From positions 1 to 25,425 of the IMG/VR virus record IMGVR_UViG_3300024518_003353: a stretch of DNA of 25,425 nucleotides. One strand, written 5' to 3'. This document shows, in pieces, positions 834-22,744 of this stretch (within the stretch, counting starts at the first letter, position 1; every line of letters begins with the position of its first letter). A program made the position numbers and the translations under genes. Source of the DNA: a virus. The notes below the pieces were generated by a model that was given only the letters and a program-made list of their open reading frames with translations, had not been told where the DNA came from and did no database searches.

Positions 834-1360
834 CTCCCTCGCCAAGAGACTTCTTATCCGGCGCTAGGAGCGTTGGGGTGGTCGTCGATCCTGACAGCGG
901 GCGAGAAGTTGAAGCCTACGCTTATCCGGGGGCGGTCCTGCTGGTGACTAATCGAGCGCAGCCCTGGCCCATGATCTGGTGGGAGGGGGGCGACCCCAAG
1001 AGACTCACCGGATACCACAAAGATCTGACCATGCGAGAAACTTACAGCACGGTGGTCCCGCTAGACGAAGTGCTGTCCGGCCTTTCTGGGCTTGTCGCCC
1101 CATGCACGATGGAAGAGGTGATGGGCAAACCCTCTGCCCGTGCAGCGGTGCGTCTTTATAACAAAGCGAGAGAGTTGGCACAGACGCTGACGCTCACCAA
1201 GGAGATAACAGCGCCTTGGGCGGATCTTATTGATGAAGAACTCGCAAAGCGGGGACGGTGGTCGTGGGATCTCCTCCTATGGGTGTCACGAACGGACAAG
1301 AGCAGACTCAAGGAGAGGAACCACCTCCCCGCTCTGGATATGTTTAGAAGTGACTCGTAA
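830..1360 (+). CDS. Hypothetical phage protein, 176 aa
   Basis: Start ATG 830 is fixed by the second 17-base cassette. I do not recognise the family. The N-terminal 60 residues look beta-rich (VGVVVDPDSGREVEAYAYPGAVLLVTN) with an aromatic stretch WPMIWWEGGDP. The middle contains a helical segment ending in KARELAQTLTL (about residues 100-125). The C-terminal part is basic and tryptophan-rich (RGRWSWDLLLW). No cofactor or catalytic signature is evident. It is the last gene of the plus-strand operon, and its final 25 codons overlap antisense with the 3' end of the convergent nuclease gene. No intrinsic terminator is obvious at its end. Confidence 0.7.
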   Translation: MTPSPRDFLSGARSVGVVVDPDSGREVEAYAYPGAVLLVTNRAQPWPMIWWEGGDPKRLTGYHKDLTMRETYSTVVPLDEVLSGLSGLVAPCTMEEVMGKPSARAAVRLYNKARELAQTLTLTKEITAPWADLIDEELAKRGRWSWDLLLWVSRTDKSRLKERNHLPALDMFRSDS

Positions 1361-1687
1361 GACTCGCCAGCCGTCCACCGTTGCAGCGTTATACTTATCG
1401 CAGTCTTTATGAAATCCGACCGGGGAGGTGTGTCGTCCAGTCCTTGGGCCAAACACGCCTCCCTCTACCTCAAGCGCAACCATCTGATCGGGCCAGCAGA
1501 AGTCGAACCTCCACTTGCGGGTGGCGTGGAATCGGTGCTCCACTTCAGGGCGAGGAAGCCCAGAGGCTGCAATCTGAAGAGTCACCTTCCGCTCCAGCGT
1601 GCTCTGCTTCGGCGAGCAGCCCTCCAGGCTAATCACCTGGACGCCTCGTCTTGGCCTGCGCCGCTTACTTGGCAAGGGCGTGGTCAT
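1286..1687 (-). CDS. PD-(D/E)XK endonuclease (DUF559/Vsr-like), 133 aa
   Basis: This is a predicted single-domain nuclease. In the protein starting at ATG 1687 the core is Asp62 in WRFDF followed by Glu73 and Glu75 in ALEVEGG, then GRHT (84-87), KYNAA (98-102) and GWRVLRVT (106-113). This D...ExE plus terminal strand pattern matches small PD-(D/E)XK nucleases related to DUF559 and Vsr. The exact substrate cannot be read from sequence; Holliday junction, mismatch or host DNA cleavage are all possible. A TTG start at 1738 would add 17 residues, but ATG 1687 sits inside the end of the holin-like gene and suits coupled translation. No strong ribosome-binding site is visible. The last 75 bases overlap the convergent plus-strand gene. 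Confidence 0.8.
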   Translation of the reverse strand: MTTPLPSKRRRPRRGVQVISLEGCSPKQSTLERKVTLQIAASGLPRPEVEHRFHATRKWRFDFCWPDQMVALEVEGGVFGPRTGRHTSPVGFHKDCDKYNAATVDGWRVLRVTSKHIQSGEVVPLLESALVRS

Positions 1688-1847
1688 GCACTGCACGAGC
1701 AAGCACGAAGGCGACCAGGGCCGTCTGGATACCTTCAATAGCGTCTTGGCCGAGGCCGATATTTGGTCCCCACACCACTGTCAGGATCAGGAGCAGGGTC
1801 GCTTGGGCTTTGCGACTCACGAGAACATCAGTCAGTAACTTGGGCAT
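1665..1847 (-). CDS. Holin-like small membrane protein, 60 aa
   Basis: Start ATG 1847 follows a strong ribosome-binding site (AGGGGGGATTCCA before ATG). The 60-residue product has two hydrophobic segments, about residues 16-33 (ATLLLILTVVWGPNIGLG) and 38-55 (IEGIQTALVAFVLARAVHD). They are separated by a short turn, and Lys/Arg residues flank the first. Size, two membrane helices and position among small genes right after the ejection proteins fit a class II holin or holin-like protein of the T7 gp17.5 kind; homology is not demonstrated. It overlaps the preceding gene by 20 bases and the nuclease gene by 23 bases. Confidence 0.65.
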   Translation of the reverse strand: MPKLLTDVLVSRKAQATLLLILTVVWGPNIGLGQDAIEGIQTALVAFVLARAVHDHALAK

Positions 1848-2178
1848 TGGAATCCCCCCTTCGTTTCATGTAAGAGAACACTGCCAATGCGGACAGCACA
1901 GCAGTTAGCACCTCGGCTGCTGGGAACGGCAGAAGAGCCACCCCAGTCCGCACTCCCTCAACGATCTGCTCAGTAGTGGTGTCGGCCCCGGCGCTCCCCA
2001 GTTCCCCGCCACCTGCAACGATCCCCACATCCCCGAGGAATCCGCTGAGGCCAGAGCAACCGGGAACCGCCACCACTAATAGGCAGGCTAATCCCGTCAA
2101 AAAAAAGATTGAAGATTTTCTGTCAGGAATGATTCCCCGCGGCGTATGCGTCATGATATTTTCCTGCCTCTTATCCAT
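1828..2178 (-). CDS. Lipobox protein with C-terminal membrane anchor (unimolecular spanin-like), 116 aa
   Basis: The N-terminus is a signal sequence with a basic n-region (DRKSS) and a hydrophobic core (IFFLTGLACLLVVAV), followed by a possible lipobox VPGC with Cys41. The middle is rich in Gly, Ala and Thr. Residues about 84-104 form a membrane segment (AEVLTAVLSALAVFSYM) followed by KRR. A lipid-anchored N-terminus plus a C-terminal membrane helix is the architecture of unimolecular spanins such as T1 gp11, which join outer and inner membranes during lysis; that role is inferred. Pro before Gly-Cys is not typical of lipoboxes. An alternative start, ATG 2154 (residue 9), has its own AGGA site. 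A run of eight T residues lies in the signal-sequence codons. Confidence 0.65.
   Translation of the reverse strand: MDKRQENIMTHTPRGIIPDRKSSIFFLTGLACLLVVAVPGCSGLSGFLGDVGIVAGGGELGSAGADTTTEQIVEGVRTGVALLPFPAAEVLTAVLSALAVFSYMKRRGDSNAQVTD
2099..2106 (-). repeat. Homopolymer T8 (A8 on the plus strand) in signal-sequence codons
   Basis: Eight identical bases encode part of Ile-Phe-Phe-Leu in the spanin-like protein. Runs of this length can cause transcriptional slippage or replication length variation, but nothing here shows that they do. Confidence 0.8.
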
Positions 2179-2810: not shown

Positions 2811-2817
2811 CTCTTAT
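2811..2817 (-). promoter_or_regulatory. Stop / ATAAGAG / start junction of the giant gene
   Basis: On the minus strand the bases read A-TAA-GAG followed directly by ATG. TAA ends the giant protein and ATG 2810 starts the membrane coiled-coil protein. An upstream GGTGAGGA may act as the actual ribosome-binding site. The same TAA-GAG-ATG arrangement occurs at 19164-19173. Confidence 0.6.
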
Positions 2818-4181
2818 TCCTCACCAATCCCAGCAACGCCCGCCATACGACGGTGTAGAGGCTTGAAGTTAGCAAAGAAGTCGTCCCCGCCCTGGATAAG
2901 AGACGGCCCAACATCCAGAGCGAGCCGTGTCTGGATCAAGTTCTGGAATGCGAACATTCTCCGGGCCGCATCTATCTCGTATCCGCTGACATCGTCGGCA
3001 GTGAACATCTTAGGGAATGATCCAGCGATAGTCAGCATATCCTTCGCCGTTCCAAAGGTGGGGCCCATCAAGGCGTCTATTTTGTTACGAGAAGCGTACC
3101 GTGACAAGGGTCCACTGTCGGCGAACTGGGACAGGCCAAAGCCGAAGGTCTTCTCGAAGATGGCATTCGTCTCACTCAGGATTCCAAGGCCACCGCCTCT
3201 GTCCATGCCCTCGACAATGAACTTGGAGATGTCATTTTCGTAGCGGAATGGGTCACGGCCACCGAGCCACTCCTTGCCTGCATAGACGAACCCTCCAAGA
3301 GACGACAGCCCGGCCAAGAGGATCACCTGGGAGATATCTCCATACTCCAGTCCTCGTTGTAGCCCAGAGACGAGCACGCTGTTAGTGGCTGCGAAACTGA
3401 AGGACTTGAACTGGAAGAGGAGTTTCCCTATAGCGGAAGAGGTTGCGATAAGAGGCAGGTCACCAGCATTCGGGGTGACGATTGTCCGGTTCACCGCCTG
3501 CATGATCGCCATGTAGTATTGCTCCTTCAGGAACGCAACTTCGTCTGCTCTTAGCCCGTCAATCGGCCCGTCCCAGAGATCCACTCGGCTGTGGTAGAAG
3601 TCTCCACCAAACAGGTCCGCTCCAGTCTCTCCGACTACTTCGTGCACTCGGGCGACGAGTGTGGCCATTTCCGTGTCGATCCCGAACTGGCCGAGCATCT
3701 CCAGTTCAAAAGCGCTTGCGGTTCCTGCACGCACCTTCCGGCTTATCTCGATCACCCTGCTCTGGATTGCCGTGGCAGCCACCGCCTTGTTCACTGCATT
3801 CCAATACTGGATTCCTGACCACTTACCGAACTTGCGGGCGCTCCACTCCAAGCCCTTCTCGGCTTTCGTCTGCTCGATCTGCATTGGATTGTCGTCAAGG
3901 AAGTAGAGTTTTCTTACCCGCTCCTCACCTAGCACGGTCTCCGCAGCGTAGATCAGTTTAGCGATGTCGGCTCTCGCAACATCGTCGTTGAGGATCTCGG
4001 CCTTTAGCATTTTGGCCCAGGCCGTGAGGTAGGGGCGGAGACCAGCCACGGAGATCCCCATTGCGAGGTCGGGAATCGAACTCAGGGCCACGCCCCCCAT
4101 GAATCGAACATAGTTGAAGTCCTTCGCCGCCTTAGCGAGTCTCATTCCGTAGCCCACAGCGTCCGTATTGATGCCGTGAGT
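2814..4181 (-). other. Conserved C-terminal ejection-protein region of the giant protein
   Basis: Residues about 3900-4354 contain FNYVRFMGGVALSSIPDL (near 3921), NAVNKAVAATAIQSR, IGKLLFQFKSFSFAATNSVL (near 4150-4170) and a hydrophobic segment LLAGLSSLGGFVYAG (near 4185). I recognise this combination from the C-terminal parts of large podovirus internal virion proteins. It is the best evidence that the gene is a gp16 counterpart and part of the ejected trans-envelope channel. Confidence 0.65.
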
Positions 4182-7100
4182 GTTGAGGATTCGATCCTTC
4201 ATGGCCTGCAAGTCCATTGCGGTCTGGCGGAAGCGCTTCTCCAGCCTCTTAACCTCGGCATCGTCCCCGGCTGTTCTGGCCGCTGCCACCTTCTTCTCAT
4301 ACGCTCGTCTGATAACAGCAAGGTGCGGCTCAAGAGAGAGAGCGTCGCCGCTGGTTTCCGAGCGGACTTGTTCGGTGGCCGCTCTGGCCCTCCCTGCCAT
4401 GGCCTCCATCTCCTCACCCGACGACCCTCTCCGTTTTGGATAAGCATAAGAGTGCGGCTCGTAGCCATCGGCTGGCCGCCCCCTGGAGGAGGCGTCAGTC
4501 GGCACCCCCAGGTCAGCGGAAATAGCACGAAGTTCCTGGGTTGCTGAATCGAACTCGCTTTCTGCTCGGGCGACCCCGTGACGAGCGGCACGAAGGCCAC
4601 CCTGGGCCCCTGCGACCTCCGTTCTGGCGGGGGCACCACCAGGGTCGGCCTCATCCAGAGCCCCCCTAGCGGCCCTGACGGCGCCCTCCTGGCCTCTCGC
4701 TGCCATGAGATCCTGCACGCCTTGAGTCAGTTTGGGGAAGCCCGGTATCTCTGGCAGGTCACCAGTCTGTTCAGCCCGGCCAATAGCCTCACTGATAAGG
4801 CTCTCCAGCATTTGAGTGGGGTCAGTCTCGCCCCCGGCAGCCCGCGTTGCCGCTTCGATCCGGGCTCGCCCCTCTCTTATCTTCCCAAGTGCAGCCTCGA
4901 TCTCCGGTCGGTTACCAGCAATGGTCTCGCTGTCGAACAGGCCGCCGAGGCCAAGCGCTTCGAGGTCTGAGTTTATCTGTCGCCTTTCGTTGTGCTGGAA
5001 GTATTCTGGCTCCCGCCCTCGGACGGAGGGGTCGGAGGCGCCCCTTGAGAAGGTGTTTGTTCCCCGCCCGGCTTCGATGGAGGAGGAGTGGTCTGGGGTT
5101 CGGTAGGACTTGAGAAGTTCTGGGTTAACTTGGAGTCCGTACCGGGCTGCGGCAACTTCGTCGGCGGCATCCATTCTGGGTAAGAGTTTCCTGACAACTG
5201 CCTGAACCCTTGCTTTGACAGCCTTTCCACCAGGGCCCTTCCACGGGGCGTCGAGATATCCTTCTCCATTTGGATTCACACTCCAATCGTTTTCTAATCT
5301 GTTACCAACATAAGTGAAGCCTTCGTACTCGACCATCCCTGCTTCTGGGCGCCCCTTGTTCCACTCGGCCAGCGACCTCTTAACGGTGAGCGTCGCCTCG
5401 TGGAGTCTTGGAAAGAGGTTAGCGTCAATCTCCGTGCGCTGCTGACCGCTCCCTGTCTTCGAGTCAGGGAACCAGTTCAGCCCCCCTCTCTCCGTGGTGA
5501 TATAGATCCCAAGACCCTCCGGGCTCTGCTGCTCAAACCGAAGCCTCTTAGCGAGCGGGCCGAGCGTCTCGAAATGAGCACGGAGATCAGCGAGCGAGTC
5601 CCTGTCCCACACCGCACCTTCGGGCAACATGAGTGTATAGCCATTGTGCAGTTTTGAGTTCGTCAGATCCGGCGGGACGATCCGGCTCCAGGTAATCGAG
5701 TCGAGCCTGTAGAGCGCAGCGGTGGCTGCTGCCCATTGGTTGCCAGCATTGACTGTGTGCACGCCGTCGTTGAGCACTCCTGCGAGCGCTTTGATTATCG
5801 CCTTCGAGATATGCTTTCCGCCCTGCTCCCGGTTGGTCTTGGCGATCCACTCCTCCGCCTCCCTTCTGACCGCTGCCGGAATGACCTGATTCGGTAAGAA
5901 GAGACGGGTGGTGCCAGTCACCCCAGGCGTGACCGACGAGAGCCCCGGCAGCCCAAGTTCGAGGAGAACAGCGTCTGCCCCTGGAGCGTTATGCCCACTC
6001 CGTGCGCTGCTACCCGTAGCCCTTACGAGGGAATAACTATAAGGAACGCCCGTTCCGAGGGCTTTGTGGGCTTCGCTCCCTCGCTCGTCAACTCCTCTGA
6101 GGGTGTCTCGATAAGAGGCGGCGATGACTTCTTTGCTGGAGCCGTCGTCCGCCCCGACCCTTTCCGCTGTCCCCCTGACCTCTTCGTGCTTTTTGATTTT
6201 CCCATTGCTGACCCACTCCCTAACTTTCATGAGCACAGGCGAGCGCAACTGCGCCCCCTTGCCGTAAGTGTCATCGTAAATGAAGACACGATACCCGTCG
6301 CCTTCGCCCTTTGTGATCGAGTGCTTGCCCATCTTATGTCGCTTCAGCAAGTTCTTGATCTGAGTAGCACTGAGCGACTCATCGAACTCGACGATCTGAA
6401 GCGCTTGTTTACCAGACTGACGCACACGGAAGGTGAGGACATTATCGTGGCCACCAGCCAGTCCCATTCTCGCACCAGCCGCCCGTAGCCTGTCGTCGCT
6501 ACCTGTCCGCAACTCGACGACCTGGGTAGCGTGACCACGGTTCCCCTTGGGAGTGACCGCACCGTCCACTCTTATCACTTTCGCCTCTTCGGACACAACA
6601 CGACGCACAGCCTCAGTTGACCGGGCGTGGGCCTCGCCTCCAACTTCCTTGAGAGCGTGGTCGAGAGTTGCGTGGCCAGTGTCGCCTTTGTTTGTTGCAA
6701 TCACATAAGAGTCAGTCTGGAAGTCAGAGGTGGCACGGTTACGCAGCGCAGCGATCTGCACCTGTATATTGTCCGGCAGGGCCTCCAGGCCATTCAAGTG
6801 CGTGGAGGAGGGGCCCGGCGTGAACGGATGGTTCGCCCTCCACGGATACCCCTCTTCAAGAAGGTTGTGGTAAACCATGGGGTCAGACTCGCCCGCCTCG
6901 ATGAAGCGATGCGTTGTCCACAACATCGCTTGTACTTGCCAGGGCTTCCAGTCCGTCACTCCACGATAAGCGTCTTCATTGAGTTCGTCGGTCAGCATCT
7001 CAACCATGTCAGTCATGAACTTGTAGTCTTTGCCACTATCAAGGGAGCGAGTGGAATCCGAATAGTTCAGGTGCTTCTTGGACTTACGCTCCGCATTCCT

Positions 7101-10100
7101 GGCTTTACGCAACTCCTTCGAGTCACCCTTGGCGCTTAGATTCTCCATGTGAGTCTGGAACCGCCGTAGACGATCATTGAACTTTGCTGGAGTATCCTGC
7201 GCTCCGGTCTTGCCAAACTGGAAGTGGCGGAACATCCAAACATCCGCTACCACATCATGGAGTTCTGACTGCCAGTGACCTTGCATTTCCTCTCTGAAGA
7301 CATCGTACTGGAGCGCACGGTGAATCGTGCGAGCAAAGGAAGCGGTCTTGAATGCGTTTCGCTTCCCTGAACTGAGCCTGATAGACCAGTCCTTGTCGCC
7401 GAGCCGGACCGCTCGTCCAGCGGCGTCATATCCAAGAACAATCTTCTCCAACTTAGGCTTCAAGGTGAGAGGGAACGCATGGGACGGGAACAAGTTTGTC
7501 ACGCCCGACTTGAGGTTTGGCAGGTTCATTATCTTGGCCACGGTGTCTAATGCGTTACCGAGGTTCTGCTTTGGGTTGGTGTTAGCCGAGGTGATCGCCA
7601 GGATATCAATGAACATCGACGCCTGAAGTAGGTCTCCTTGGAACGCCTCAAGGATTCCGGCAGAGGAATCTTCGTACCAGAACCGGGCAGCCTCGTCCGC
7701 CTTGTCGTGGAAGAGCATCCTCTTACTGTTCGCTTGCAGGGCGAGCATCATTGATTTCAGTTGCTTGGGCGAGACCTGCTTCTTCCCTGCCTGAGTGGCC
7801 TGTCCCATCGGCACAGTCCAGCCAAGCCTTGCCAGCGTCTTTGCCACCGCAGCGTTCGGGGTGACCTTCTTGCCGTCAATAAGAGATTCAACCTCATCCA
7901 TGATCTTCTGGATGACCTCGCTGGTCTGGTATAGATCTGCGACTGTGCGATGCTTGTTATAGAGGAGGGCGTTCCTCTTGACATGGACCTCGCCCTCTCG
8001 GGCGGCACCCATGAACAAGATGTCATCAATATGAACGATCTCATGGACAGCGACGCCCGGCTGTGTGCCCTCTGCTTTGGCCATCTCGGCATCCGAGGGC
8101 TGCTCGAAGCCATCGGCTGGCCGATCCTTTCTGGCCTCCTTCAAGACCTTCCTGCCCTTGGTCACCTTCGCGATCTTATCGCCCTCATTGGTGAGGACTA
8201 TGTTCTGAGTCTCATGGTACGCTACATCGTGTGTGGCCGACCCCTCGGGGGCTCCACGAACTCCGTAAGGGCTCGGAGCACCAATGGTCGTCTTATGGAA
8301 CGCCTGAGGATGCTGAAGCGTAGCGGACAACATGGACCTGTCACCCATACTGAGCATGGCGGCCCGTTTTCCCTTCAAGGATATCGCAGTGTCTGGTGAG
8401 CGAGTCCCAGCAGTGGGGTATCTGAAGTCATGCTCTGCGCTTCGTGCGTTGCTCAGGAAGTCTCGCCACCGAGCAACCGGAACCAGACCTGACGGATAAA
8501 GGACTCGAAGCGCTGATTTCAGTTGCGCTTGATATTGACCATACTCCTCAAGCAGGCCGGGCACGATGTCTCTAATGTTCTCCAGGTCGATCAGGCCACC
8601 ATCGTGCTCCCACTCTCTGAGGGTCGAGCCGTGGTGATCAGGGCCAGTTTTTACAGGCCCGAACCCGTGGGGGTCCATCCTGCTACCCTTGCCGAATGCG
8701 GGCTCCCACTGCTCCTTATGGAACTTGGCGTCCCATTCTTTCCAAGCCTTGTCGAGAGCAGCCTCTCTCTTGAGCCTGACTTCAGTAGGGAGTTTCTCAT
8801 TCTGGAGTATTCTGAGTTCAATACCTTTCAGGGCATTCTCCTTGGCCCATATCTTACTCAAGCGGACATTGTCCTCGAACTGCCCAAGGCGAATGTCGAG
8901 GCTTTCCGGGTTACGATAGCCCTCCCCGATGAGATCCATGATGGCCCTGGCGACCAGCCCGCCTTCTTCGTGACCCTTCCATGACTGCTTATTGATTAGC
9001 CCAATCAGGTTGTACCAAGGGAGGTTTTCCAGGGGGCCTTGCGGTGGGTCGTCGGTCCTCGGCTTCACTTTGGCGCCTGACTCCCTATATACGCTAAGGC
9101 TCCACACATCCCTTGTAGACTCGGCGTCGGTGAGAGGGGCGCCACTTTTCTTCTTTGCTGCTAGGTCTCTGCTCGCCTTGTACACTCGGGACTCTCTCGT
9201 CCTGTTGTAAATCAACGAGTTGGACATATCAGACGCAAGCGAACTGAGCAGCCCACCTTGCACTTTCGGCGTGTTCTCCAGCACCGCCCGTACCTCTACT
9301 TTGAGATCATTGAGTACCTTGACCGTGGCGACGCTGGGTACCGATGGCATTCCCTCCCCAACCTGCTTGATAACATAATCAAAATCAGACATTGCTTGCT
9401 CAATATAATCCTTACGGAACACTTCATGGTCTAAGTCTGCTCGCAGAAGGTTTTCGTCAGTGATCGCAATGCCAGCGTTTCGAGCGATCTCGTACGCATT
9501 CATGGACCTATCAGGCTGCACGGCCTCCCCGCCGTTCCCACGAGCCCCAAGATTGATATCATCACCGACAAGGAACGGCTTGCCAAAAGGATACTGCCGT
9601 ATCGCCCACTCCAAGTAGGACTTGATCTCTCCGCCCTGGCTATCCAGCCCTTGGGCACTAAGGAAGTCGAGCCTCTTATGAATGAGGCGGGTGATCTCGC
9701 CATAACTTATTGCCTGTTCGTTATGGATCTTCCTTGCCACCAACGGGGCGTACCCCATCGCAGATACTTGCACTTGCTCCTCGTCCACTCCATCAATGTA
9801 GCGCAGCACCTTCTCATGGGGGACGAGAATCTCATCTTGCAACTTCATCGAGTCTTCTACCGAGAACGACTTCTTTCTTTCTTCGTCTGGCTTAGTTGCA
9901 TAGGTAGTCTCGTGCCAGCGGTCAATCTTCTCCTTGTCAGCGCCTTTGTATCCGGTCTCTCGCAGGGCTCCGGCTGTGGTGGACAGCCCAAACTCCTCGG
10001 TCGTGCCGGGGAAGTTCGGGTGGACAACCTCCCCCCTGGTCCCTTCTAGATCGTCTTCAACTCGCCCGGTCCTCCAAAACAGATCTCGAACCGGAGTGTT

Positions 10101-13100
10101 CGGCAGACTTGACCGAGGGTGAGTTCCAGTACCCTCTATGTTGTCGGGAGTCCCGAAGACTCTGAGAAGAATATCAGGGCTGTGTACTGCACGGGCAGCC
10201 AGCGACCCATGGTCTTCTCCCTCTATACGAGGCACCTCGCTCTCGGTCTGGAAATATTGTCTGGCCTTCTTCGGCGAGCCTTGGCTGGCACGGAAGGCAA
10301 TAAAAGGCTCGGAGGTCTGCCGGAGTTCGGTTGGCGGGTCGGTCAGCGAGGCAGTGTAGTTACCCGTATCATAGTCGAAATCCACGACAGTGTTATCGAC
10401 GCGCAGAGGTCTGCCACTCTGAACGGTATCTTTGACAAGAGCATTCCACTCAGCAGTGGACAGTGATCTTCCCGGACCGTTATTGGGGGATCGGAAGGGG
10501 CCGAGGTAAGGCAGTTTTTCTTTGGCGTTAGGGGAGTAGCCATCGAAGAAATAGAGGCCAGGCCCTGAATACGCATCCACCACATGGAATCCTGGCTCAA
10601 GTTCCCCTCGCTCAAACCGCCCGAGCATCTCATCTGGCTCGGAGTGCGTGCGATTGAATGGGTCGTCGGCTACTTCTTTCATCGCTGCTGGGAGTTCGGC
10701 CTCTGTGGCTTGGCGAACCTTTTCAATAACACTATCGGCCTCGGCCTTCTTTGGTCGATAGCCACCGCCAGTGCCCTCTGGATCATCATGCGGGAAGACG
10801 AACCCTTTGCGCTGATACCACGCCTTGAGTTGATCATTGGTGAGGCCAACCGACTGACCCTGACGACGAACATTTTGAGCCGACACGACTAGCGACACCG
10901 ACATATCCCTGGCGTCTGCTGCGGCAAGGATTCTGTCTAGTTCTTTGCTGGCAGCGCCTTGCCCCCTTGTTCCCGTGGAGAGGATCAAGTCTATCTCGAT
11001 GTCTCCCGCAAACTGCTCTCCGTTGATATAGATCAGTTCGCCGTCGTTTTTGAGGGTGACCTCTACCCCGTCATCGTTGAGGTAGTTGAATCGAGTTTCG
11101 TCGTATCCCGCTTCGAGGAAGCGAGTCTTACCGTCCGAAAGTTCGTCTGCCATATACGCCGCATCCGTCTTTTCTGGGGGGACGAATCTCTCCCGCTGAA
11201 AATATTGCTTGGCCTGTATGTCGAGTTCGTCACCTGTGCGCCCACCTACAGACTCTCGGATAAGTTCCTTGGCCTGGGTCTGTAGGGCAACTGCGTCGTC
11301 ATACTTATCCATCAAGAGGTATGGAACCTGATCCCTCACCTCGTTAAACGAATCAGCGTGCGGAAGCCTGAGCGCATCAGTTGGGTCATACACCATAAGA
11401 ACAATGTCAGGAGTCCCCAGGCCGCCCTCATCTATTGGCCTCATATCCCAGCCCTCAGGACGGAAGTCTGGATTGAACTCCGCCCTGGCTACCGGACGCC
11501 AGCCATGCCTGCCATAGAGGGTGGGCAGGTGGCCATTGATATCGAAGCCGTCGAGTGTTTCAGCGAACTTGCTTGCCTGCGAGAGAAGCCCGTTTATGTC
11601 TGCGGCACTGCCCGGCATCTTATGGACGCTTATCAGGTCTCTATCTGGAGTGACTACGAGCCCTGCGGTGGCGTCTCTGGCGAGGTAGATTCTGGTCTCT
11701 GGGTTGAGGTAGAAGGCTTGGTCTTTGACCTCGACGGCCTTCCCGAATCTGTGGGTTGTGGCGGTTTCGATAAGCCCGTCCCTGAAGAGAACTCCGGCTG
11801 TAGACTCAACGCGGAAGCCGCTCGTGCGTATGCGTCCCTCAATGACTTCTTCGCCATATCGTTCCTTCCAATCAGGGTGGTTTGTGAACTCGTCCACCCA
11901 CCCTGCAAGATCTACCTTGTTATCAGCAAGGAACTCTCCCTTGCCTTCGGTTCGCTGCTCCAGGCCGCCTGGGGCTACCTCGCTACTGTCCTTGAAAACT
12001 ATCATGCCCTTGTCAAGGTTGAGGGCGTCATACAGTTCGTAGATGCCATCGGCTTCAGAGTCCGACAAGTGGAAGACTCTCTTAATATCAGTCTTTTGAG
12101 ATTCGGTGAGCCGCCTGTGTGGTGAGTCGTTGGTCTCCCTGCCCGCCGCAGTCACTATGTCCTCGTCTGATAAGAGGAGTTTGTCGAACACGGTCTTCAC
12201 CTTCGGGTCGAGCGGCGTAGAGAAACGGCCAGCGAATGCCTGATACACCCTCTTCATCGCCTTCATCAACTCTTGCATGACTCGTTTCACACCAGCACTG
12301 ACGCCCGGTTGGAACTTGCCCTCGGCGACATACTGCTCGAACGCACGGGCAAACTTCTCCTCCATGTCTACTGTCCACACTCGATCCTTGCCCTCAGCCA
12401 ACGGATCAAGAGCCTTGCCGTCATTCGCCCACAACTCAAGGTCGTCCATATCCTGGTGGGTAACATCTCCCGCATGACCATCAGTAATCTTCGCCCTGGT
12501 AAGAGTCCTTAACCGAAGGGCGTGCCCAATCTCATGGACAGCGGTGGAAAAGTCGGCGCCCGAGAACCCTTGAATAACATCCTTGACGCCCTGCGGGTCT
12601 AACTTGAAGACGCCCTTGGTGACGCTCGCCCCCCCCGCTTCGGCTGTCCCACCCTTGAGAAACTTCGACTCCACCAAGTCGATCATCTCTCGGCTCGCCC
12701 AGCCCTCTGATATCAACTTCTCTGGATCATGGATGTTCTTAGCGAGGTGTAGCACCCAGGCGGCTGGGCCCATATTGGCAACCTTTGTACTAACATCACC
12801 GCCCTGGTTGTTGTTATTCGGCGTCCGGGACGACTCAACGACTGCGGCAAACTCCCGCTCAACCGTTTCCCTTATGTCCGCCTTCAAGCCGATAAGAAAT
12901 GCCTCGCCCCTGAGGGCTCTCTCGCCTTCATCTCCGAAGGCAGTCAGTGTGCTCACGGCTGCCTGCACCTCAGCGCCAGCATCACGAATCTCATCGGAGT
13001 CCACTCGGGCAACCATGTCGTCAAGCATTTGCACAATAAGAGAACCACGATGCTGTCTTAGTGTGGCGGCATCCAGCACGGATTCCGCCGGAGTCGTGCC

Positions 13101-15878
13101 CCCAATGGCGTCCCTCATCGAGTCTTGAATATCTTGCTCCAGTGACAGCAGTTTCTCCTCAAACCCGTCGGCAACAACTTGCTGGTTATGAGCCGTGTCA
13201 CTAGCGTCTCTGTGTTCTTGCAGCAGGTCTTTGATTCTGTTAGTGATACCGACCATATCAACGGCTTGACCATTGGCCTCGACCGCTTGGCCTGCTACTT
13301 CTGGCTTGAACACGGACAAGAGGCGCAAGCCATTATGAAGCCTCAACAAGTTAGTTGACTGGAAGAGGTCATTCATTGCTTTCGTGACTTTCTCCACCTC
13401 GGCCCTGGGCAAGTTGTCTGGAATCTTCCCAGTCGCAGGGTCACGCAGCGCCTTCATTATGTCGTCAAAAGCCTCATACTGATCCAGCGTGCGCTGCATG
13501 AGTTCCAGTTGCACCGGGGAGGCGAGGTATCGGTAGATCGCCACCTTCGGGATGTGCCTCTTAGTGATCGTCTGCATGACCAGCCCAATGTCCTTAACAA
13601 GGAACGGCTCCACAAACTCATCACGGAGCAACAAGACCCTCTCGTGTAAAGAGTTCTGCGGGCCCATTCGGCTAGAGGCCATGTCAGAGTTGATCGGGTC
13701 ATTGATTATGTTGCGGATCACGGCGTGGATACGAGCGTCGTCTATGCCTATAAGATCAGCCAGCCTTTGTTCCAGGACGACCAAGTGCGCAGCGTCAGAG
13801 GCTGTCGAGCCGGGGTCAGCAACCAGTTGCCTTTGGACCTCAATCGACGCTACTAGCGATGGCTCGTCGGAGGCTTTCCATTCCTCGATCCCGGCACGAA
13901 CAGACGCAAAGAACGCATCGTAGTGCTTCCTGATCTTCGTGGCGTCATACATCCTTGCCACATACATGGCTGCCATGCGTCGGGTCTGGCTGGAATCCAG
14001 TTTCAGAAGGCCCATGGACCTGAGGAGTTTCCCGGTGTTCTCGATGAACGGATCATATATCTCTTTGACCGCACGCTCGACACCGTCAACTGCCGCCTGT
14101 CTAGCAGTCGGATCTTCAATCTTATTGATTATGTCGTATACCGACCGTTCGGCCCCCTCTAGCCCTGAACTCTCATGGAACTCGTCCGCCAAATCTAGGG
14201 CACGAGGGGTCACACCGTCGTCCTCATAAGAGCGCACAGCATAAGAGTGGGCGAGGGAGCGCAGGTCTATCTCTGATACGCCAGACGACGCCGTGACCTC
14301 CCTGGCGAGTTGGGCAAGTTCTCCCACTAGCCTCAGGTTCATCACTTCCATGTACTGCGACGCTGCGTCCATTCCAGGACGATTAACACCGTGACCTCTG
14401 GACCCTGCCTCTTGAGTGAGTGCTCCACCAGAAAACAACTGATACATTTGCCGCCCGTAGTCGGTGATCTCTTGGCCCATTCTCGTGTTGGGACTCCAGA
14501 GCAGCCAGCGACCCACGAGGCGGCCCCAGAAGGTGTTGCCTTCGGCTAGGCCGACCAGTCTGGCCACCTTACTGCTTACGGTATTGGTGTCCGCATCGAG
14601 CCGGAGCAGGGCCTCATGCATCCTTTTCGAGATCAAGACTTCAGCAGGACTCGCAATGGCAGCATCGCTAGTGGCAACTTCGGTCGCACTCTCCCTCGGG
14701 GCAACTTCTTCTGCCTGCGCTAACTCAGTTGGGGCGTCATCGTCATCCGCCGCCCTCGCTGCGTCCTCCTCCTCCGCCGCCCTCGCTGCATTTTCCTCAT
14801 CCACAACCCTCGCCACTGCTTCGTCAGCAGCCGCCCTTGTATCTGCGCCGGGCGCCACCTCCACAAAGTCGTACTCGTCCCTGTGCCCGTCCGGGGGAGT
14901 GAAGCCCTCGTCCATCGCCTTTCTGTCACTCTTTCTTATCCAGCCTGTTGCACCCGCCTCAACCACCTCATTGAGCGTGTTAGATGCTTCGTGTCTCACT
15001 GCCGCCGCCACACCACCTGCAACTTCTTGTCCGAGCAAACTGGTCAAAGCCCCACGATAAGTCTTGCCTATGGCATAGAAGCCTCCTCCGAGAACGGCTC
15101 CGAACACGCCGCCTCCGACGATGCTCATCCAGGTTTCCTCCATGGTGCGGAGCGGTTGAGCCTTCTGAAGCACCATCTCGGAAACAGCCCCCGCTATCGC
15201 CCCCTCCAGGCCAGTGGCCAAAGCCGCCTGCTTGACCGTGGTCTTTGATAGAGCAACTCTCTGAAGCAGGTTTTGAGCGAGGCCGTGTGTCATATCGTCG
15301 CCAATGTGCGCCGCCGAGACGATTGCCGGGTGAGTTCTATGAGCGGCGATAAGAGCCGCCTTCTCAACCTCCGTTACCGCACGGAGTTCAGTTCCGGCAG
15401 CCACCTTGAAAGCACGCGCCCTCGAACCAGTCATGGCCAACCGGAAGCCGCGAGAGAGTGGCACCCAGTTCTCGGGGCTGGTCATTCCCACTGGGAGGTA
15501 GTACATGAGGCTCTCGAAGAAACCCAGGTTGTGGAGTATTTTCCTGTCCGCAAGATCCTGAGAGGCCCGCTTCGCCACCATCGAAAACTCGGCATAAGAT
15601 TTCGCACTCGCCATTCTCGGGTACTTATCCACCATGCCCTGCAAGTGCTTCATTTGGATCCACAACTGGTTCTTCTTTTGGGTCCAGTTGGGATCCGGCG
15701 CATAGACTTTGTGGTCCTGCGCAATCCTGCCTAGATTGTAGAGGATGTTCATGTCACGAAATGCAGCCGCGTAGGTCTCGCCAATCGTAGCCTTAGGGTT
15801 CCAGGCCGGGATAGGGTGGAAGCCTCTATGTTTGCGAACTGGCCGCCGTGATTGATCCTGCTGGCTACTGACTACCAT
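2814..15878 (-). CDS. Giant ejection (gp16-position) polyvalent protein, 4354 aa
   Basis: This uninterrupted 13-kb gene occupies the place of the T7 gp16 ejection protein, after gp14/gp15-like genes and before small lysis genes. T7 gp16 is 1318 aa, so this is over three times longer. N-terminus: no lytic transglycosylase motif recognised; hydrophobic segments about 220-275 with a glycine zipper; acidic Ala/Glu/Asp linker about 344-404. Middle: HEIGH at 1115-1119 with EEKFARAFEQY at 1173-1183 (zinc peptidase-like), acetyltransferase-like regions about 1340-1505 and 1580-1700, HEIVH at 2612-2616 and SANTNPKQN near 2763. C-terminus: coiled coils about 3640-3900, then a region seen in podovirus ejection proteins (FNYVRFMGGVALSSIPDL near 3921, GKLLFQFKSFSFAATN near 4155). 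Start ATG 15878 overlaps the previous stop by 14 bases. An ejected multi-effector protein is inferred. Confidence 0.85.
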   Translation of the reverse strand: MVVSSQQDQSRRPVRKHRGFHPIPAWNPKATIGETYAAAFRDMNILYNLGRIAQDHKVYAPDPNWTQKKNQLWIQMKHLQGMVDKYPRMASAKSYAEFSMVAKRASQDLADRKILHNLGFFESLMYYLPVGMTSPENWVPLSRGFRLAMTGSRARAFKVAAGTELRAVTEVEKAALIAAHRTHPAIVSAAHIGDDMTHGLAQNLLQRVALSKTTVKQAALATGLEGAIAGAVSEMVLQKAQPLRTMEETWMSIVGGGVFGAVLGGGFYAIGKTYRGALTSLLGQEVAGGVAAAVRHEASNTLNEVVEAGATGWIRKSDRKAMDEGFTPPDGHRDEYDFVEVAPGADTRAAADEAVARVVDEENAARAAEEEDAARAADDDDAPTELAQAEEVAPRESATEVATSDAAIASPAEVLISKRMHEALLRLDADTNTVSSKVARLVGLAEGNTFWGRLVGRWLLWSPNTRMGQEITDYGRQMYQLFSGGALTQEAGSRGHGVNRPGMDAASQYMEVMNLRLVGELAQLAREVTASSGVSEIDLRSLAHSYAVRSYEDDGVTPRALDLADEFHESSGLEGAERSVYDIINKIEDPTARQAAVDGVERAVKEIYDPFIENTGKLLRSMGLLKLDSSQTRRMAAMYVARMYDATKIRKHYDAFFASVRAGIEEWKASDEPSLVASIEVQRQLVADPGSTASDAAHLVVLEQRLADLIGIDDARIHAVIRNIINDPINSDMASSRMGPQNSLHERVLLLRDEFVEPFLVKDIGLVMQTITKRHIPKVAIYRYLASPVQLELMQRTLDQYEAFDDIMKALRDPATGKIPDNLPRAEVEKVTKAMNDLFQSTNLLRLHNGLRLLSVFKPEVAGQAVEANGQAVDMVGITNRIKDLLQEHRDASDTAHNQQVVADGFEEKLLSLEQDIQDSMRDAIGGTTPAESVLDAATLRQHRGSLIVQMLDDMVARVDSDEIRDAGAEVQAAVSTLTAFGDEGERALRGEAFLIGLKADIRETVEREFAAVVESSRTPNNNNQGGDVSTKVANMGPAAWVLHLAKNIHDPEKLISEGWASREMIDLVESKFLKGGTAEAGGASVTKGVFKLDPQGVKDVIQGFSGADFSTAVHEIGHALRLRTLTRAKITDGHAGDVTHQDMDDLELWANDGKALDPLAEGKDRVWTVDMEEKFARAFEQYVAEGKFQPGVSAGVKRVMQELMKAMKRVYQAFAGRFSTPLDPKVKTVFDKLLLSDEDIVTAAGRETNDSPHRRLTESQKTDIKRVFHLSDSEADGIYELYDALNLDKGMIVFKDSSEVAPGGLEQRTEGKGEFLADNKVDLAGWVDEFTNHPDWKERYGEEVIEGRIRTSGFRVESTAGVLFRDGLIETATTHRFGKAVEVKDQAFYLNPETRIYLARDATAGLVVTPDRDLISVHKMPGSAADINGLLSQASKFAETLDGFDINGHLPTLYGRHGWRPVARAEFNPDFRPEGWDMRPIDEGGLGTPDIVLMVYDPTDALRLPHADSFNEVRDQVPYLLMDKYDDAVALQTQAKELIRESVGGRTGDELDIQAKQYFQRERFVPPEKTDAAYMADELSDGKTRFLEAGYDETRFNYLNDDGVEVTLKNDGELIYINGEQFAGDIEIDLILSTGTRGQGAASKELDRILAAADARDMSVSLVVSAQNVRRQGQSVGLTNDQLKAWYQRKGFVFPHDDPEGTGGGYRPKKAEADSVIEKVRQATEAELPAAMKEVADDPFNRTHSEPDEMLGRFERGELEPGFHVVDAYSGPGLYFFDGYSPNAKEKLPYLGPFRSPNNGPGRSLSTAEWNALVKDTVQSGRPLRVDNTVVDFDYDTGNYTASLTDPPTELRQTSEPFIAFRASQGSPKKARQYFQTESEVPRIEGEDHGSLAARAVHSPDILLRVFGTPDNIEGTGTHPRSSLPNTPVRDLFWRTGRVEDDLEGTRGEVVHPNFPGTTEEFGLSTTAGALRETGYKGADKEKIDRWHETTYATKPDEERKKSFSVEDSMKLQDEILVPHEKVLRYIDGVDEEQVQVSAMGYAPLVARKIHNEQAISYGEITRLIHKRLDFLSAQGLDSQGGEIKSYLEWAIRQYPFGKPFLVGDDINLGARGNGGEAVQPDRSMNAYEIARNAGIAITDENLLRADLDHEVFRKDYIEQAMSDFDYVIKQVGEGMPSVPSVATVKVLNDLKVEVRAVLENTPKVQGGLLSSLASDMSNSLIYNRTRESRVYKASRDLAAKKKSGAPLTDAESTRDVWSLSVYRESGAKVKPRTDDPPQGPLENLPWYNLIGLINKQSWKGHEEGGLVARAIMDLIGEGYRNPESLDIRLGQFEDNVRLSKIWAKENALKGIELRILQNEKLPTEVRLKREAALDKAWKEWDAKFHKEQWEPAFGKGSRMDPHGFGPVKTGPDHHGSTLREWEHDGGLIDLENIRDIVPGLLEEYGQYQAQLKSALRVLYPSGLVPVARWRDFLSNARSAEHDFRYPTAGTRSPDTAISLKGKRAAMLSMGDRSMLSATLQHPQAFHKTTIGAPSPYGVRGAPEGSATHDVAYHETQNIVLTNEGDKIAKVTKGRKVLKEARKDRPADGFEQPSDAEMAKAEGTQPGVAVHEIVHIDDILFMGAAREGEVHVKRNALLYNKHRTVADLYQTSEVIQKIMDEVESLIDGKKVTPNAAVAKTLARLGWTVPMGQATQAGKKQVSPKQLKSMMLALQANSKRMLFHDKADEAARFWYEDSSAGILEAFQGDLLQASMFIDILAITSANTNPKQNLGNALDTVAKIMNLPNLKSGVTNLFPSHAFPLTLKPKLEKIVLGYDAAGRAVRLGDKDWSIRLSSGKRNAFKTASFARTIHRALQYDVFREEMQGHWQSELHDVVADVWMFRHFQFGKTGAQDTPAKFNDRLRRFQTHMENLSAKGDSKELRKARNAERKSKKHLNYSDSTRSLDSGKDYKFMTDMVEMLTDELNEDAYRGVTDWKPWQVQAMLWTTHRFIEAGESDPMVYHNLLEEGYPWRANHPFTPGPSSTHLNGLEALPDNIQVQIAALRNRATSDFQTDSYVIATNKGDTGHATLDHALKEVGGEAHARSTEAVRRVVSEEAKVIRVDGAVTPKGNRGHATQVVELRTGSDDRLRAAGARMGLAGGHDNVLTFRVRQSGKQALQIVEFDESLSATQIKNLLKRHKMGKHSITKGEGDGYRVFIYDDTYGKGAQLRSPVLMKVREWVSNGKIKKHEEVRGTAERVGADDGSSKEVIAASYRDTLRGVDERGSEAHKALGTGVPYSYSLVRATGSSARSGHNAPGADAVLLELGLPGLSSVTPGVTGTTRLFLPNQVIPAAVRREAEEWIAKTNREQGGKHISKAIIKALAGVLNDGVHTVNAGNQWAAATAALYRLDSITWSRIVPPDLTNSKLHNGYTLMLPEGAVWDRDSLADLRAHFETLGPLAKRLRFEQQSPEGLGIYITTERGGLNWFPDSKTGSGQQRTEIDANLFPRLHEATLTVKRSLAEWNKGRPEAGMVEYEGFTYVGNRLENDWSVNPNGEGYLDAPWKGPGGKAVKARVQAVVRKLLPRMDAADEVAAARYGLQVNPELLKSYRTPDHSSSIEAGRGTNTFSRGASDPSVRGREPEYFQHNERRQINSDLEALGLGGLFDSETIAGNRPEIEAALGKIREGRARIEAATRAAGGETDPTQMLESLISEAIGRAEQTGDLPEIPGFPKLTQGVQDLMAARGQEGAVRAARGALDEADPGGAPARTEVAGAQGGLRAARHGVARAESEFDSATQELRAISADLGVPTDASSRGRPADGYEPHSYAYPKRRGSSGEEMEAMAGRARAATEQVRSETSGDALSLEPHLAVIRRAYEKKVAAARTAGDDAEVKRLEKRFRQTAMDLQAMKDRILNTHGINTDAVGYGMRLAKAAKDFNYVRFMGGVALSSIPDLAMGISVAGLRPYLTAWAKMLKAEILNDDVARADIAKLIYAAETVLGEERVRKLYFLDDNPMQIEQTKAEKGLEWSARKFGKWSGIQYWNAVNKAVAATAIQSRVIEISRKVRAGTASAFELEMLGQFGIDTEMATLVARVHEVVGETGADLFGGDFYHSRVDLWDGPIDGLRADEVAFLKEQYYMAIMQAVNRTIVTPNAGDLPLIATSSAIGKLLFQFKSFSFAATNSVLVSGLQRGLEYGDISQVILLAGLSSLGGFVYAGKEWLGGRDPFRYENDISKFIVEGMDRGGGLGILSETNAIFEKTFGFGLSQFADSGPLSRYASRNKIDALMGPTFGTAKDMLTIAGSFPKMFTADDVSGYEIDAARRMFAFQNLIQTRLALDVGPSLIQGGDDFFANFKPLHRRMAGVAGIGEE
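7959..8081 (-). other. HEIVH ... EGEVHV segment of the giant protein
   Basis: Residues about 2600-2640 contain HEIVH (2612-2616), then IDDILFMG and EGEVHV (2628-2633). HEIVH fits the zinc-peptidase HExxH pattern, but no clear third ligand follows. Two strands ending in E-x-E are also compatible with an ADP-ribosyltransferase-like ending. Neither reading is secure. Confidence 0.3.
10779..11141 (-). other. GNAT-like acetyltransferase domain of the giant protein
   Basis: Residues about 1580-1700. The segment LILSTGTRGQGAASKELDRI has the R-G-x-G-x acetyl-CoA pyrophosphate loop (Arg1638, Gly1639, Gly1641) leading into a helix. A strand MSVSLVVSAQN follows, then QLKAWYQRKGFVF, the usual GNAT ending with an aromatic/Lys-Gly-Phe signature. 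The spacing fits the family. The substrate is unknown. Confidence 0.6.
11364..11861 (-). other. Second acetyltransferase-like domain of the giant protein
   Basis: Residues about 1340-1505. The end HLPTLYGRHGWRPVARAEFN (Leu1454-Tyr1455) followed by PEGWD and PDIVLMVYDP resembles a domain common in phage proteins, where a GNAT-type LYxxxGF strand is followed by a conserved Trp and a PDvvfMv strand. The acetyl-CoA loop is not obvious upstream, so it may be a degenerate or divergent fold. Confidence 0.45.
12309..12566 (-). other. Zinc metallopeptidase-like domain of the giant protein
   Basis: Residues about 1105-1190. FSTAVHEIGHALRLRTL has HEIGH (His1115, Glu1116, His1119). About 55 residues later EEKFARAFEQYVAEG (1173-1187) offers the downstream glutamate typical of gluzincin-like phage peptidases. 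The motif order matches MPTase-type domains described in polyvalent proteins. The target could be a host protein, the envelope or the protein itself. Confidence 0.65.
14667..14849 (-). other. Acidic low-complexity linker of the giant protein
   Basis: Residues about 344-404 are almost only Ala, Glu, Asp, Val and Arg, with near-repeats such as ENAARAAEEEDAARAADDDD. The segment separates the glycine-zipper N-terminus from the following helical region and is probably flexible or a single charged helix. Confidence 0.7.
15054..15131 (-). other. Glycine-zipper hydrophobic segment of the giant protein
   Basis: Residues about 250-275 read WMSIVGGGVFGAVLGGGFYAIG. The regularly spaced glycines (GGGxxGxxxGGG) in a hydrophobic stretch are typical of membrane-inserting glycine zippers, which fits a protein that must cross the host envelope during DNA ejection. 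Confidence 0.7.
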
Positions 15879-20064: not shown

Positions 20065-22744
20065 AACTCACCTCCATGTTCACAGCGCACACCTCGATCT
20101 GGTAGGGCGCTGTCTGGGTCACGGTTATGGAGGGCTGATTGCCGTAATCTCCGATAACAGGCACGCTCACCCACCCACCAAATGTGGGGACCGCTGCACT
20201 AGCAGGCACCCCAGGAACGGTGTCCATGGCATAGCCCTCAACAATCAACCCACGAGCGTTCTGCACATACACCAGTATTCGGCTGATGTTGCGGCGGTGC
20301 CCGTGGGTGGTCCCCCTCCCCACATCGGTCTCCTGGATACACGGCTCAATCTTATAAGAGACCGCCCTCCCCACAGTCAGCGAGGTGGGCATGGCGACCA
20401 TTCCCAGGTTGCTCACATCTGCCCCAGTGTCGTCAGTGAAGCCCATGGTGACATCCCCGTAATACACCCCATCCGCTACCACCTGGACCGTCTGCCCCCT
20501 CAAGGCGCCAATGGTCAAGCGGTCTGGAGCACCACCAACATCAGTGAGCACGGACTCTAGAGTTGGCGAGGTGGTCGAGGTGTAGGTGTTCTCCTGATCC
20601 ATCGTGTATATCTCGCCAAAGGACTCGATGCTTCGGTATGTCTTGTCTTGAACCCCTCCAACAGGCCCACCGCCGAACTTCCTCTGGATAACAGCCCAGA
20701 CATTGTCATGCGATGTGCCTTCTGTTTGGGTGGGCCGGGAAGAGATCCAGTCCACCGCGTCCGGTGCACCCGTCTCCACTCGGCTCCACCCCATTACTTT
20801 CGTGCTAGGCTTCCAGTTCAGCACCCGTAGTTTTCCTGACTTGGTTCTTACCCAGACCAGAATGTCCGGCGAGGTGGTGACGACCAACTGCGCAATCGAC
20901 TCGTTAATAAACAGATGGTCAGCCAAGTCAGTGACATCAGCAACATCGTAGGTGTCCTGCATATCGCTGTAGGTGGCCATATAAAGGCTTCTGCCATCAC
21001 GGGCAACATATAGGGTGGCGGCTCCCAGTCGAACAGGCATGACCCGGCTGCTTCCATAAGAGGATGTCTTGATAAGAGCCGCCGTGGTTGGGGAGATTGG
21101 TACGCCATTCACCCTGTACTCTGCTCGATCACAGCCGACGAGGAGATCCCTGTTGGAGTCAACCCATTGAATCGGGCCTCCGTCACGGGCTATGAGGCCA
21201 AACCCATCGACGGCGTCCCCGTTTCCTTGGGAGAAATCCAGCGGCTCGCCCACCCGGCTCACCACGAGGTTCTCGGAATAGAGTCCAAGGCCAGCGGTGG
21301 GGCCAATAAAGCCCCCCAGCACTGCCCGGCCCTGGTGGGTGGTGCCCACGGAGGGGAACCCCACTCCCTCGCTCATGCCGAACCCGATATTGAAGGTGGG
21401 GCCAATGTAGCCACTTCCGTCGATATTGACGACTTCGTATCCTCGCCACCCCTCCTGAGACTCCGTACCCGTCACTGCGACAATCCCGTCCGCTATGAAC
21501 ACGGTGCCCCCTCGGGTGACCGTGCCGTCGGCTCCGTCAAAATGAGTCTCGTGGCCAGTGGGGAGCCAAGCCTGCTTTGTAGACCAAATCGGCGCATCCG
21601 AAGAAAGCGTGGACCGCATATAGTAGTCCCTCGTCACCCCCTTTCTCGTCCCCATTACTTTGTGAATGACCGTGGCGCCGATGACGCCGCCTCTTATCAC
21701 TTTGACCGTGACACTGTCTCCAGAACCAATGGCAATGACCATTGCAAACAGATCCCCGGTCGGGCCAACCAAGAGGCTGCCGATCAAGGCCGTGGTGGGA
21801 GTGGTGGGCCAAGTTACTACCTGCGTGGTATTGGTGACAGGAGGAGTGGTGGGCCAAGTGATGGCCAAGGACTCGGAGGTTACAAATGGCCCGCACCAGT
21901 CCAGTGAGTTGTTTCCGGGCTCATTAGCAGGCCCGTTTCCGTCTACATGGCTATAGCCAACCATGGTAGGCGACAGGTACTCGGTCACCTTCACCCACTC
22001 GGAATAAGAACTCCCAGGCTTGGTTCCGCCCACCCGCCAATAAGAACCCAAGTCCTCTGGCACAAACAAGTCAGAGGTGGCGGTGATCTCATTGTCCCCA
22101 GTGTTCACTAACAGGCCAATGGTGTTGCCCTCTACATGAACCCGTGGGGAGGTGTCCATGAATGGCGCTACCTCATACTTCCAGGTCTCAGCCGTTCCTA
22201 TCACCGTCCGCTCCAGCACCAGAGGGGGGTGCGCCGGGTGGAGCAGGAACAACTTATTCTCCATCTGGAAATACTGAATGTCTTGCAGTTCGGAATCCTG
22301 CGGCGGGGGGCCGTCAGCCTTCAACTTGTAGAAGGTATTGTACTTCGTGTTGTCTGCTGGAGAGACCGCCGGGATGGGGCCGTGCGCTTGGTCGTCAGCG
22401 AACCCGATGTAGGAGTAGCCCTCCAACACCTTCAGAGTGGCCAGGGTGTCAGTCTCGGCCACCTTGGTAAGAACCACCATGTACCTGCCGCCCGTTGTGG
22501 TCTCGTAGGGAATGGCTATTGCCTCGCCACCCAACAAATCATTCCCAACTTCCGAAGCGTCTGGCTGGTAGTCGGAGAACTTGACGAAACGGCTGCCGTA
22601 GCGCTTCTGGGCCGCGCCATAGGCTGTTATGAACGCATTGAGCATCGTCTTGGCGCCGCTTTGCACCTGGGGGAGGCTCGCCCTTGGGAAGGCGCGAGGA
22701 CTCATTTCCCCAGAACTAAAACTCTCCTGGACCTGCCATGCCAT
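20054..22744 (-). CDS. Tail nozzle protein (tail tubular protein B, gp12-like), 896 aa
   Basis: The N-terminus VQESFSSGEMSPRAF, then LPQVQSGAKTMLNAFITAYGAAQKRYGSRFV, is the hallmark of podovirus nozzle proteins (Q-x-SF-x-x-GE-x-SP, then LxNF and GxxxRxGxxFV). The rest is beta-rich with many Gly, Thr and Val residues, as expected for the propeller-based nozzle that closes the tail and contacts fibres (T7 gp12, 794 aa). ATG 22744 overlaps the previous TAA by one base (TAATG) and has AGG seven bases upstream. The order after the gatekeeper domain and before gp13 is as in T7. Confidence 0.9.
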   Translation of the reverse strand: MAWQVQESFSSGEMSPRAFPRASLPQVQSGAKTMLNAFITAYGAAQKRYGSRFVKFSDYQPDASEVGNDLLGGEAIAIPYETTTGGRYMVVLTKVAETDTLATLKVLEGYSYIGFADDQAHGPIPAVSPADNTKYNTFYKLKADGPPPQDSELQDIQYFQMENKLFLLHPAHPPLVLERTVIGTAETWKYEVAPFMDTSPRVHVEGNTIGLLVNTGDNEITATSDLFVPEDLGSYWRVGGTKPGSSYSEWVKVTEYLSPTMVGYSHVDGNGPANEPGNNSLDWCGPFVTSESLAITWPTTPPVTNTTQVVTWPTTPTTALIGSLLVGPTGDLFAMVIAIGSGDSVTVKVIRGGVIGATVIHKVMGTRKGVTRDYYMRSTLSSDAPIWSTKQAWLPTGHETHFDGADGTVTRGGTVFIADGIVAVTGTESQEGWRGYEVVNIDGSGYIGPTFNIGFGMSEGVGFPSVGTTHQGRAVLGGFIGPTAGLGLYSENLVVSRVGEPLDFSQGNGDAVDGFGLIARDGGPIQWVDSNRDLLVGCDRAEYRVNGVPISPTTAALIKTSSYGSSRVMPVRLGAATLYVARDGRSLYMATYSDMQDTYDVADVTDLADHLFINESIAQLVVTTSPDILVWVRTKSGKLRVLNWKPSTKVMGWSRVETGAPDAVDWISSRPTQTEGTSHDNVWAVIQRKFGGGPVGGVQDKTYRSIESFGEIYTMDQENTYTSTTSPTLESVLTDVGGAPDRLTIGALRGQTVQVVADGVYYGDVTMGFTDDTGADVSNLGMVAMPTSLTVGRAVSYKIEPCIQETDVGRGTTHGHRRNISRILVYVQNARGLIVEGYAMDTVPGVPASAAVPTFGGWVSVPVIGDYGNQPSITVTQTAPYQIEVCAVNMEVSYGD
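20067..20075 (-). promoter_or_regulatory. Strong ribosome-binding site for the gp13-like gene
   Basis: GGAGGTGAG sits two bases before ATG 20064, an almost full match to the anti-Shine-Dalgarno sequence. It lies within the last codons of the nozzle gene. Confidence 0.8.

Follow-up and report, generated by a model that had tools for sequence, protein, structure and literature searches.

A putative lipoprotein gene with a C-terminal membrane helix, and candidate short unimolecular spanin, in a marine podovirus and related contigs

The lipoTM locus

The window analysed here is a whole virus record of 25,425 bases, from a podovirus of marine bacteria. In reading direction its gene order is: a giant gene; a gene for a small protein with a transmembrane (TM) stretch and a coil (TM-coil); a basic ORF; the gene considered here, which we call lipoTM; a 60-aa ORF; and a gene matching phrog_503. 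All are on the minus strand. The giant gene is a single ORF of 4354 aa (2814-15878) with several HExxH-like motifs recognizable by eye, and Pfam gives nothing above cut-off for its product; the near relative G001 has two long ORFs here, one of 1203 aa and one of 2343 aa. The TM-coil gene (2502-2810, 102 aa), the conserved upstream neighbour of lipoTM, encodes an acidic N-terminus, one TM stretch, and a coil containing Cys95. Between these two genes is a 95-aa ORF rich in Lys, Arg and Pro (2190-2477), whose place in contig G035 is taken by a 75-aa HNH-type ORF. Behind lipoTM, and overlapping its end by 20 bases, is a holin-like 60-aa ORF with two hydrophobic segments (1665-1847).

The phrog_503 gene (1286-1738, minus strand; E 1.1e-31) has no function assigned in PHROGs. 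In G019, G028 and G035 the same end of the late region holds genes that look similar by eye, and in G035 and G028 the phrog_503-like stretch lies inside a longer ORF whose first half is HNH-like; L094:5319-6215 and L057:6901-7725, both on the minus strand, are listed alongside the window's gene. Elsewhere in the window an 882-aa ORF (22744-25392, minus strand) is rich in SATASDA-type repeats, and a repeat search found eight 300-nt copies within 23881-24867 (62-100% identity, mostly at 69 nt spacing).

The lipoTM gene (1828-2178, minus strand) encodes 116 aa, or 108 aa if translation starts at 2154; the two candidate ATGs, at 2178 and 2154, are eight codons apart and each follows a purine-rich SD-like run, the second making the lipobox cysteine residue 33. 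The codon score over 1828-2178 is +0.07 bits per codon in this frame and -0.18 to -0.34 in the other five. A hydrophobic signal stretch with the lipobox VPGC (2053-2112, minus strand; approximately residues 23-41 plus one residue, from a hydropathy window over 23-41) places Cys41 directly after LLVVAVPG, and a second hydrophobic stretch (1867-1935, minus strand; approximately residues 82-104 by hydropathy, with a best 19-residue window at 82-100 and mean Kyte-Doolittle value of 1.85) is followed by the basic tail KRR at 105-107. The middle is Gly/Ala/Thr, without Cys.

ORFs were screened by hydropathy and a lipoprotein-signal rule of our own (loose lipobox, hydrophobic stretch and positive n-region), a rule that fails to pick up the homologues G034 and L049, whose signals are very short; among the 155 window ORFs of at least 50 aa, lipoTM alone passes. 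An earlier note on this DNA had described a 116-residue ORF with Cys41 after a signal sequence, a C-terminal helix and KRR, and each of these is borne out by the ORF, hydropathy, codon score and signal rule; the holin-like and membrane coiled-coil neighbours that it reported correspond to the 60-aa and 102-aa ORFs. The lipobox, with Pro at -2, falls outside the strict consensus [LVI][ASTVI][GAS]C given in a spanin survey (PMC6139136).

The lipoTM family

Among viral contigs, the window lipoTM protein matches only those of G001 (98%) and G002 (93%). G001 (45,157 bases) is probably near complete, with a capsid gene at its start and a scaffold-like ORF at its end. The window and G002 genes differ at 12 bases, distributed 5/4/3 over the codon positions (dN 0.037, dS 0.030); with dN about equal to dS there is no sign of purifying selection, although 12 differences are too few to decide.

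More distant members were reached by way of terminase relatives of the window, which lead to G019, in which the order is giant gene, TM-coil gene, and a gene for a lipoprotein with a C-terminal helix. Searches with the G019 lipoprotein and with a profile each yielded 17 loci in the same contigs; together with the window, G001, G002, G035, L029 and L030 these give 23 lipoTM-bearing contigs. Gly-Cys and VEGPGGD are invariant in 12 aligned members, and Gly-Cys is invariant in all 15 aligned proteins. Eleven of the 12 are alike: mean pairwise identity is 76% over their ectodomains and 35% over their signal regions. L029, the remaining member, is distant, at 30% identity to the first. The distant lipoTM-like genes L029:1953-2264 and L030:2277-2588 lie directly behind the large terminase gene, that of L029 between terminase and portal genes, and the lipoTM gene may thus have moved between operons.

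A lipoprotein signal, C-terminal helix and basic tail are present by hydropathy in the 14 homologues measured, the helix values ranging from a weakly hydrophobic 1.02 in G035 to 1.95. Of 16 sequences, eight have a strict-consensus lipobox, five deviate at -3 only, and three (window, G001 and G002) have Pro at -2; none of the 16 has a Cys between the lipobox Cys and the helix. The +2 residue is S, A, T or E, and never Asp.

The window protein is connected to the larger family through G035, which was reached via the window TM-coil protein (82% identity). The G035 order is giant gene, TM-coil gene, HNH-type ORF, lipoprotein gene, and a 61-aa two-segment ORF, and the 61-mer is a clear relative of the window 60-mer (0/3000 shuffles), as is the G035 lipoprotein of that of G019 (0/3000 shuffles). 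By tblastn the G035 lipoprotein matches eight of nine other contigs (E 3e-7 to 4e-4), always at the lipoTM gene, the miss being G001. The window and G035 proteins align with a score of 48 (shuffle mean 24), a score reached by 2 of 3000 composition-matched shuffles. When the window protein is set directly against the larger family, the evidence is weak: the hhalign probability is 44%; shuffles reach the score in 28/1000 cases for the mature part, 37/1000 for the C-terminal part and 221/1000 for the ectodomain; and 18% of shuffles reach the score against G019. The window protein is tied to the larger family only through G035, and gene position is a stronger argument than sequence for its membership. 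LipoTM appears to be a small family carried by viral contigs that are relatives of the window's podovirus, and in our reading the window gene is a member that has diverged fast.

Database searches returned little. The window protein has no PHROG match at E 1 and a single weak Pfam match below cut-off (DUF7471, E 0.11); for twelve homologues the best PHROG match has an E-value of 0.017, with none for the G035 protein. Against 50,697 phage records the window and G019 proteins are unmatched at E 10, and the best E-values for the G025 and G035 proteins are 0.7 and 4. The best E-value for the family among PDB sequences is 0.022, with no match for the window protein. A pattern search of GTDB contigs gave 293 matches, none of them a lipoTM relative, and no lipoTM counterpart was seen by eye among the translated small genes of phages whose tail or giant proteins are similar (ZP6, HTVC024P, 1.138.O, EC.W1-9 and TL-2011b). 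No description of the family was found in the open-licence literature, where searches for EGPGGD and LLPEPWN gave at most spider silk, for EGPGGD only. AlphaFold models have three short strands for a G026-type protein (mean pLDDT 60) and no strands for the window protein (pLDDT 50), both too weak to judge the fold; a beta-rich ectodomain is reported for u-spanins of the T1 family.

Lipoprotein genes and lysis genes

Of 1802 ORFs of at least 40 aa in six larger contigs, eight have a signal and a later helix: one lipoTM in each contig and two further ORFs in G019, of which one is inside a larger ORF and the other partly overlaps an opposite-strand ORF. ORFs with a signal only are inside larger ORFs, except G028 27992-28255, whose hydrophobicity is at the limit of the rule. 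In G035 the signal rule selects two of 333 ORFs: lipoTM, with a helix that falls short of the helix threshold, and one of 45 aa that overlaps a larger ORF. Each of these seven larger contigs thus has one credible lipoprotein gene, lipoTM, as would be expected of a unimolecular spanin (u-spanin).

No endolysin was recognized. Phage_lysozyme is absent from all 12 contigs searched, and no lytic family was matched by Pfam among 30 pooled proteins (23 of G001 and seven of the window), among 91 of the 133 ORFs of 80-560 aa in G019, G026, G027 and G028 (the other 42 being lipoTM, structural or doubtful), or in the giant protein, nor by PHROGs in seven large proteins. The candidate lysis neighbour is the holin-like 60-mer, directly behind lipoTM in both the window and G035. 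Among the pooled G001 proteins the bpMoxR and VWA families are each matched once, by eye by the adjacent ORFs L012:3034-4485 and L012:4578-6143 (both minus strand), a pair unusual for a phage of this size.

Length of the Cys-to-helix stretch

The distance from the lipobox Cys to the helix was measured with one script in 14 lipoTM proteins (G034 and L049 left out) and is 41 residues in the window, G001 and G002, 31 in G035, 44 in L029, and 50 in the nine others. The same script gives 60 for SIO1, 79 for VpV262, 84 for CW02, 85 for T1, 87 for KP34, 94 for PB1 and 117 for 11b, using annotated spanins for T1, KP34 and CW02 and script-picked ORFs for the others; VpV262 and T1 each have a second, unlikely ORF (23 and 24 residues), and of two ORFs in Flavobacterium phage 11b the one beside the endolysin was taken. 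At 31-50 residues, the lipoTM stretch is shorter than those of all seven known or presumed u-spanins (60-117). The second 11b ORF (L105:12286-12552, 88 aa) has 39 residues from Cys to helix and lies within the structural region, at a distance from the endolysin; a short protein of lipoTM shape may therefore not be unique.

An extended chain covers about 0.34 nm per residue, so that the 41 residues of the window protein would reach 14 nm, less than the usual E. coli periplasm of about 20 nm; this, on the E. coli width, is the main argument against bridging. Periplasmic lengths of u-spanins vary in the spanin survey, in which none of 58 has a Cys in the periplasmic part and CW02 is listed among u-spanin phages (PMC6139136). 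The shuffle test detects no similarity of lipoTM to the u-spanins of T1, KP34, SIO1 and PB1, although by the same test T1 and SIO1, both accepted u-spanins, are not alike either; descent of lipoTM from known u-spanins is unsupported by this test.

Function of lipoTM

A one-piece spanin is anchored by lipid in the outer membrane and by a helix in the inner membrane, and bursts the outer membrane at virus exit. The earlier note had put lipoTM forward as a candidate u-spanin. The architecture it invoked is real, and recurs at the same gene position as the one credible lipoprotein gene in seven larger contigs; membership itself is less secure, given the short stretch, the lack of a recognized endolysin, the atypical lipobox, and the lack of similarity to four u-spanins. 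In favour we count the signal, helix and basic tail, the invariant Gly-Cys, the conserved Cys-free ectodomain, the holin-like 60-mer, and a placement like that in CW02; against are the short stretch, Pro at -2, the weak G035 helix, the missing endolysin, the lack of similarity, the L029 position, and the weak structural models. The architecture fits the u-spanin definition, and lipoTM is probably a short variant, with function inferred. We give a probability of about 0.5 to its being a short u-spanin-like lysis protein. Disruption of the outer membrane is the likeliest function at about even odds, a figure that reflects how short the stretch is, the lack of a recognized endolysin, and the undecided part played by the TM-coil neighbour.

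Lipidation, sorting, bridging, fusion and timing are our conjecture and would proceed as follows. The hydrophobic N-terminus would direct export, and the Cys would be lipidated and sorted to the outer membrane, as the absence of Asp at +2 suggests under the E. coli retention rule. The C-terminal helix would lie in the inner membrane with KRR inside. The wall mesh would confine the protein until cleavage of the wall, after which the protein would draw the two membranes together and cause fusion. A further, tentative reading, to which we assign clearly less than even odds, is that lipoTM is a family of minimal u-spanins joining or fusing the inner and outer membranes across 31-50 residues, whose ectodomain has the conserved VEGPGGD in one branch and is rich in Gly and Ala in that of the window. 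If true, either the lower size limit of spanins is well below what has been assumed or the hosts' periplasm is thin, and lipoTM would be a u-spanin family from uncultivated viruses, unrecognised by Pfam and PHROGs here and with the shortest stretch among the u-spanins measured. With homologues ranging from 31 to 50 residues, the set would in that case allow a direct test of the minimum length at which a spanin still disrupts the outer membrane.

An unlikely alternative is that lipoTM is an inner-membrane lipoprotein whose lipid and helix share one membrane and which, without bridging the envelope, controls the holin or the timing of lysis. Both the shortness of 31-50 residues for crossing a periplasm and the adjoining holin-like and TM-coil genes are consistent with this, but there is no Asp at +2 that would retain it by the E. 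coli rule.

The TM-coil neighbour raises the rather unlikely possibility of a two-component spanin, in which TM-coil is the i-spanin, lipoTM the o-spanin, and the extra C-terminal helix secondary. The TM-coil gene is intact upstream of lipoTM in 16 of the 23 contigs (window, G001, G002, G019, all eleven of G025-G035, and L055), the comparison covering all but L030, L051 and L063; it is truncated in L059 and L062, not found in the 872 bases upstream of lipoTM in L049, and not seen on the 5.5-kb contig L029, a point against this reading. The window and G019 TM-coil proteins are clear relatives (score 152, shuffle mean 29, 0/2000). All 12 TM-coil proteins measured have a Cys, and in the spanin survey Cys is general in two-component spanins, with a given minimum of 62 residues that the summed lipoTM and TM-coil stretches exceed (PMC6139136). 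An i-spanin, however, would be N-in and C-out, whereas by the charge rule the flanks of the TM stretch predict N-out/C-in in 11 of 12 (the exception being G028), which would put the coil and its Cys on the cytoplasmic side; nor does an o-spanin need a C-terminal helix. Weak PHROG matches point both ways, to Rz-like spanins (E 0.0075 for G019 and 0.012 for G025) and, as the best named match of G025, to a holin family (E 0.0013). A possible likeness of the TM-coil proteins to BhlA/UviB holins was not borne out in Pfam, where no match to these was obtained at E 1.

It is improbable that lipoTM, rather than serving lysis, is a lipoprotein for superinfection exclusion or acts in DNA entry or in the virion. 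Its gene is behind the giant virion gene and among basic proteins in relatives, one of which weakly matches the DNA-pilot family phrog_220 (E 2.6e-5), and the L029 gene is flanked by terminase and portal; but the single superinfection-exclusion match covers the L029 signal region at E 0.36, and CW02 provides an example of a spanin gene placed behind virion genes. Least probable is an unlipidated, holin-like two-helix protein with both ends inside, as the two hydrophobic stretches with basic residues outside both, the atypical VPGC and the two possible starts might suggest, against which stand a Gly-Cys kept in all aligned proteins despite a variable signal region and the separate holin-like 60-mer.

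Comparison with known spanins

As a short u-spanin, the preferred reading, lipoTM resembles T1 gp11 and KP34 gp54 in having a predicted lipoprotein signal, Cys-free ectodomain, C-terminal helix and basic tail, but these have ectodomains of 85-87 residues rather than 41, are encoded beside holin and endolysin genes, and have no similarity to it by the shuffle test. The lambda Rz/Rz1 type shares with the lipoTM locus a short lipoprotein encoded close to a small gene for a TM stretch and coil, and a Cys in the coil protein, whereas lipoTM has its own C-terminal helix and the TM-coil charges predict the opposite topology. The u-spanin of SIO1 (cobaviruses) is like lipoTM in architecture and the shortest of the seven measured, although longer than any lipoTM protein and without similarity to it. 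The u-spanins of CW02 (gp38) and VpV262, both Zobellviridae, are likewise similar in architecture but longer from Cys to helix (79-84 residues), and in CW02 the gene directly follows internal virion genes, far from the endolysin, a placement like that of lipoTM.
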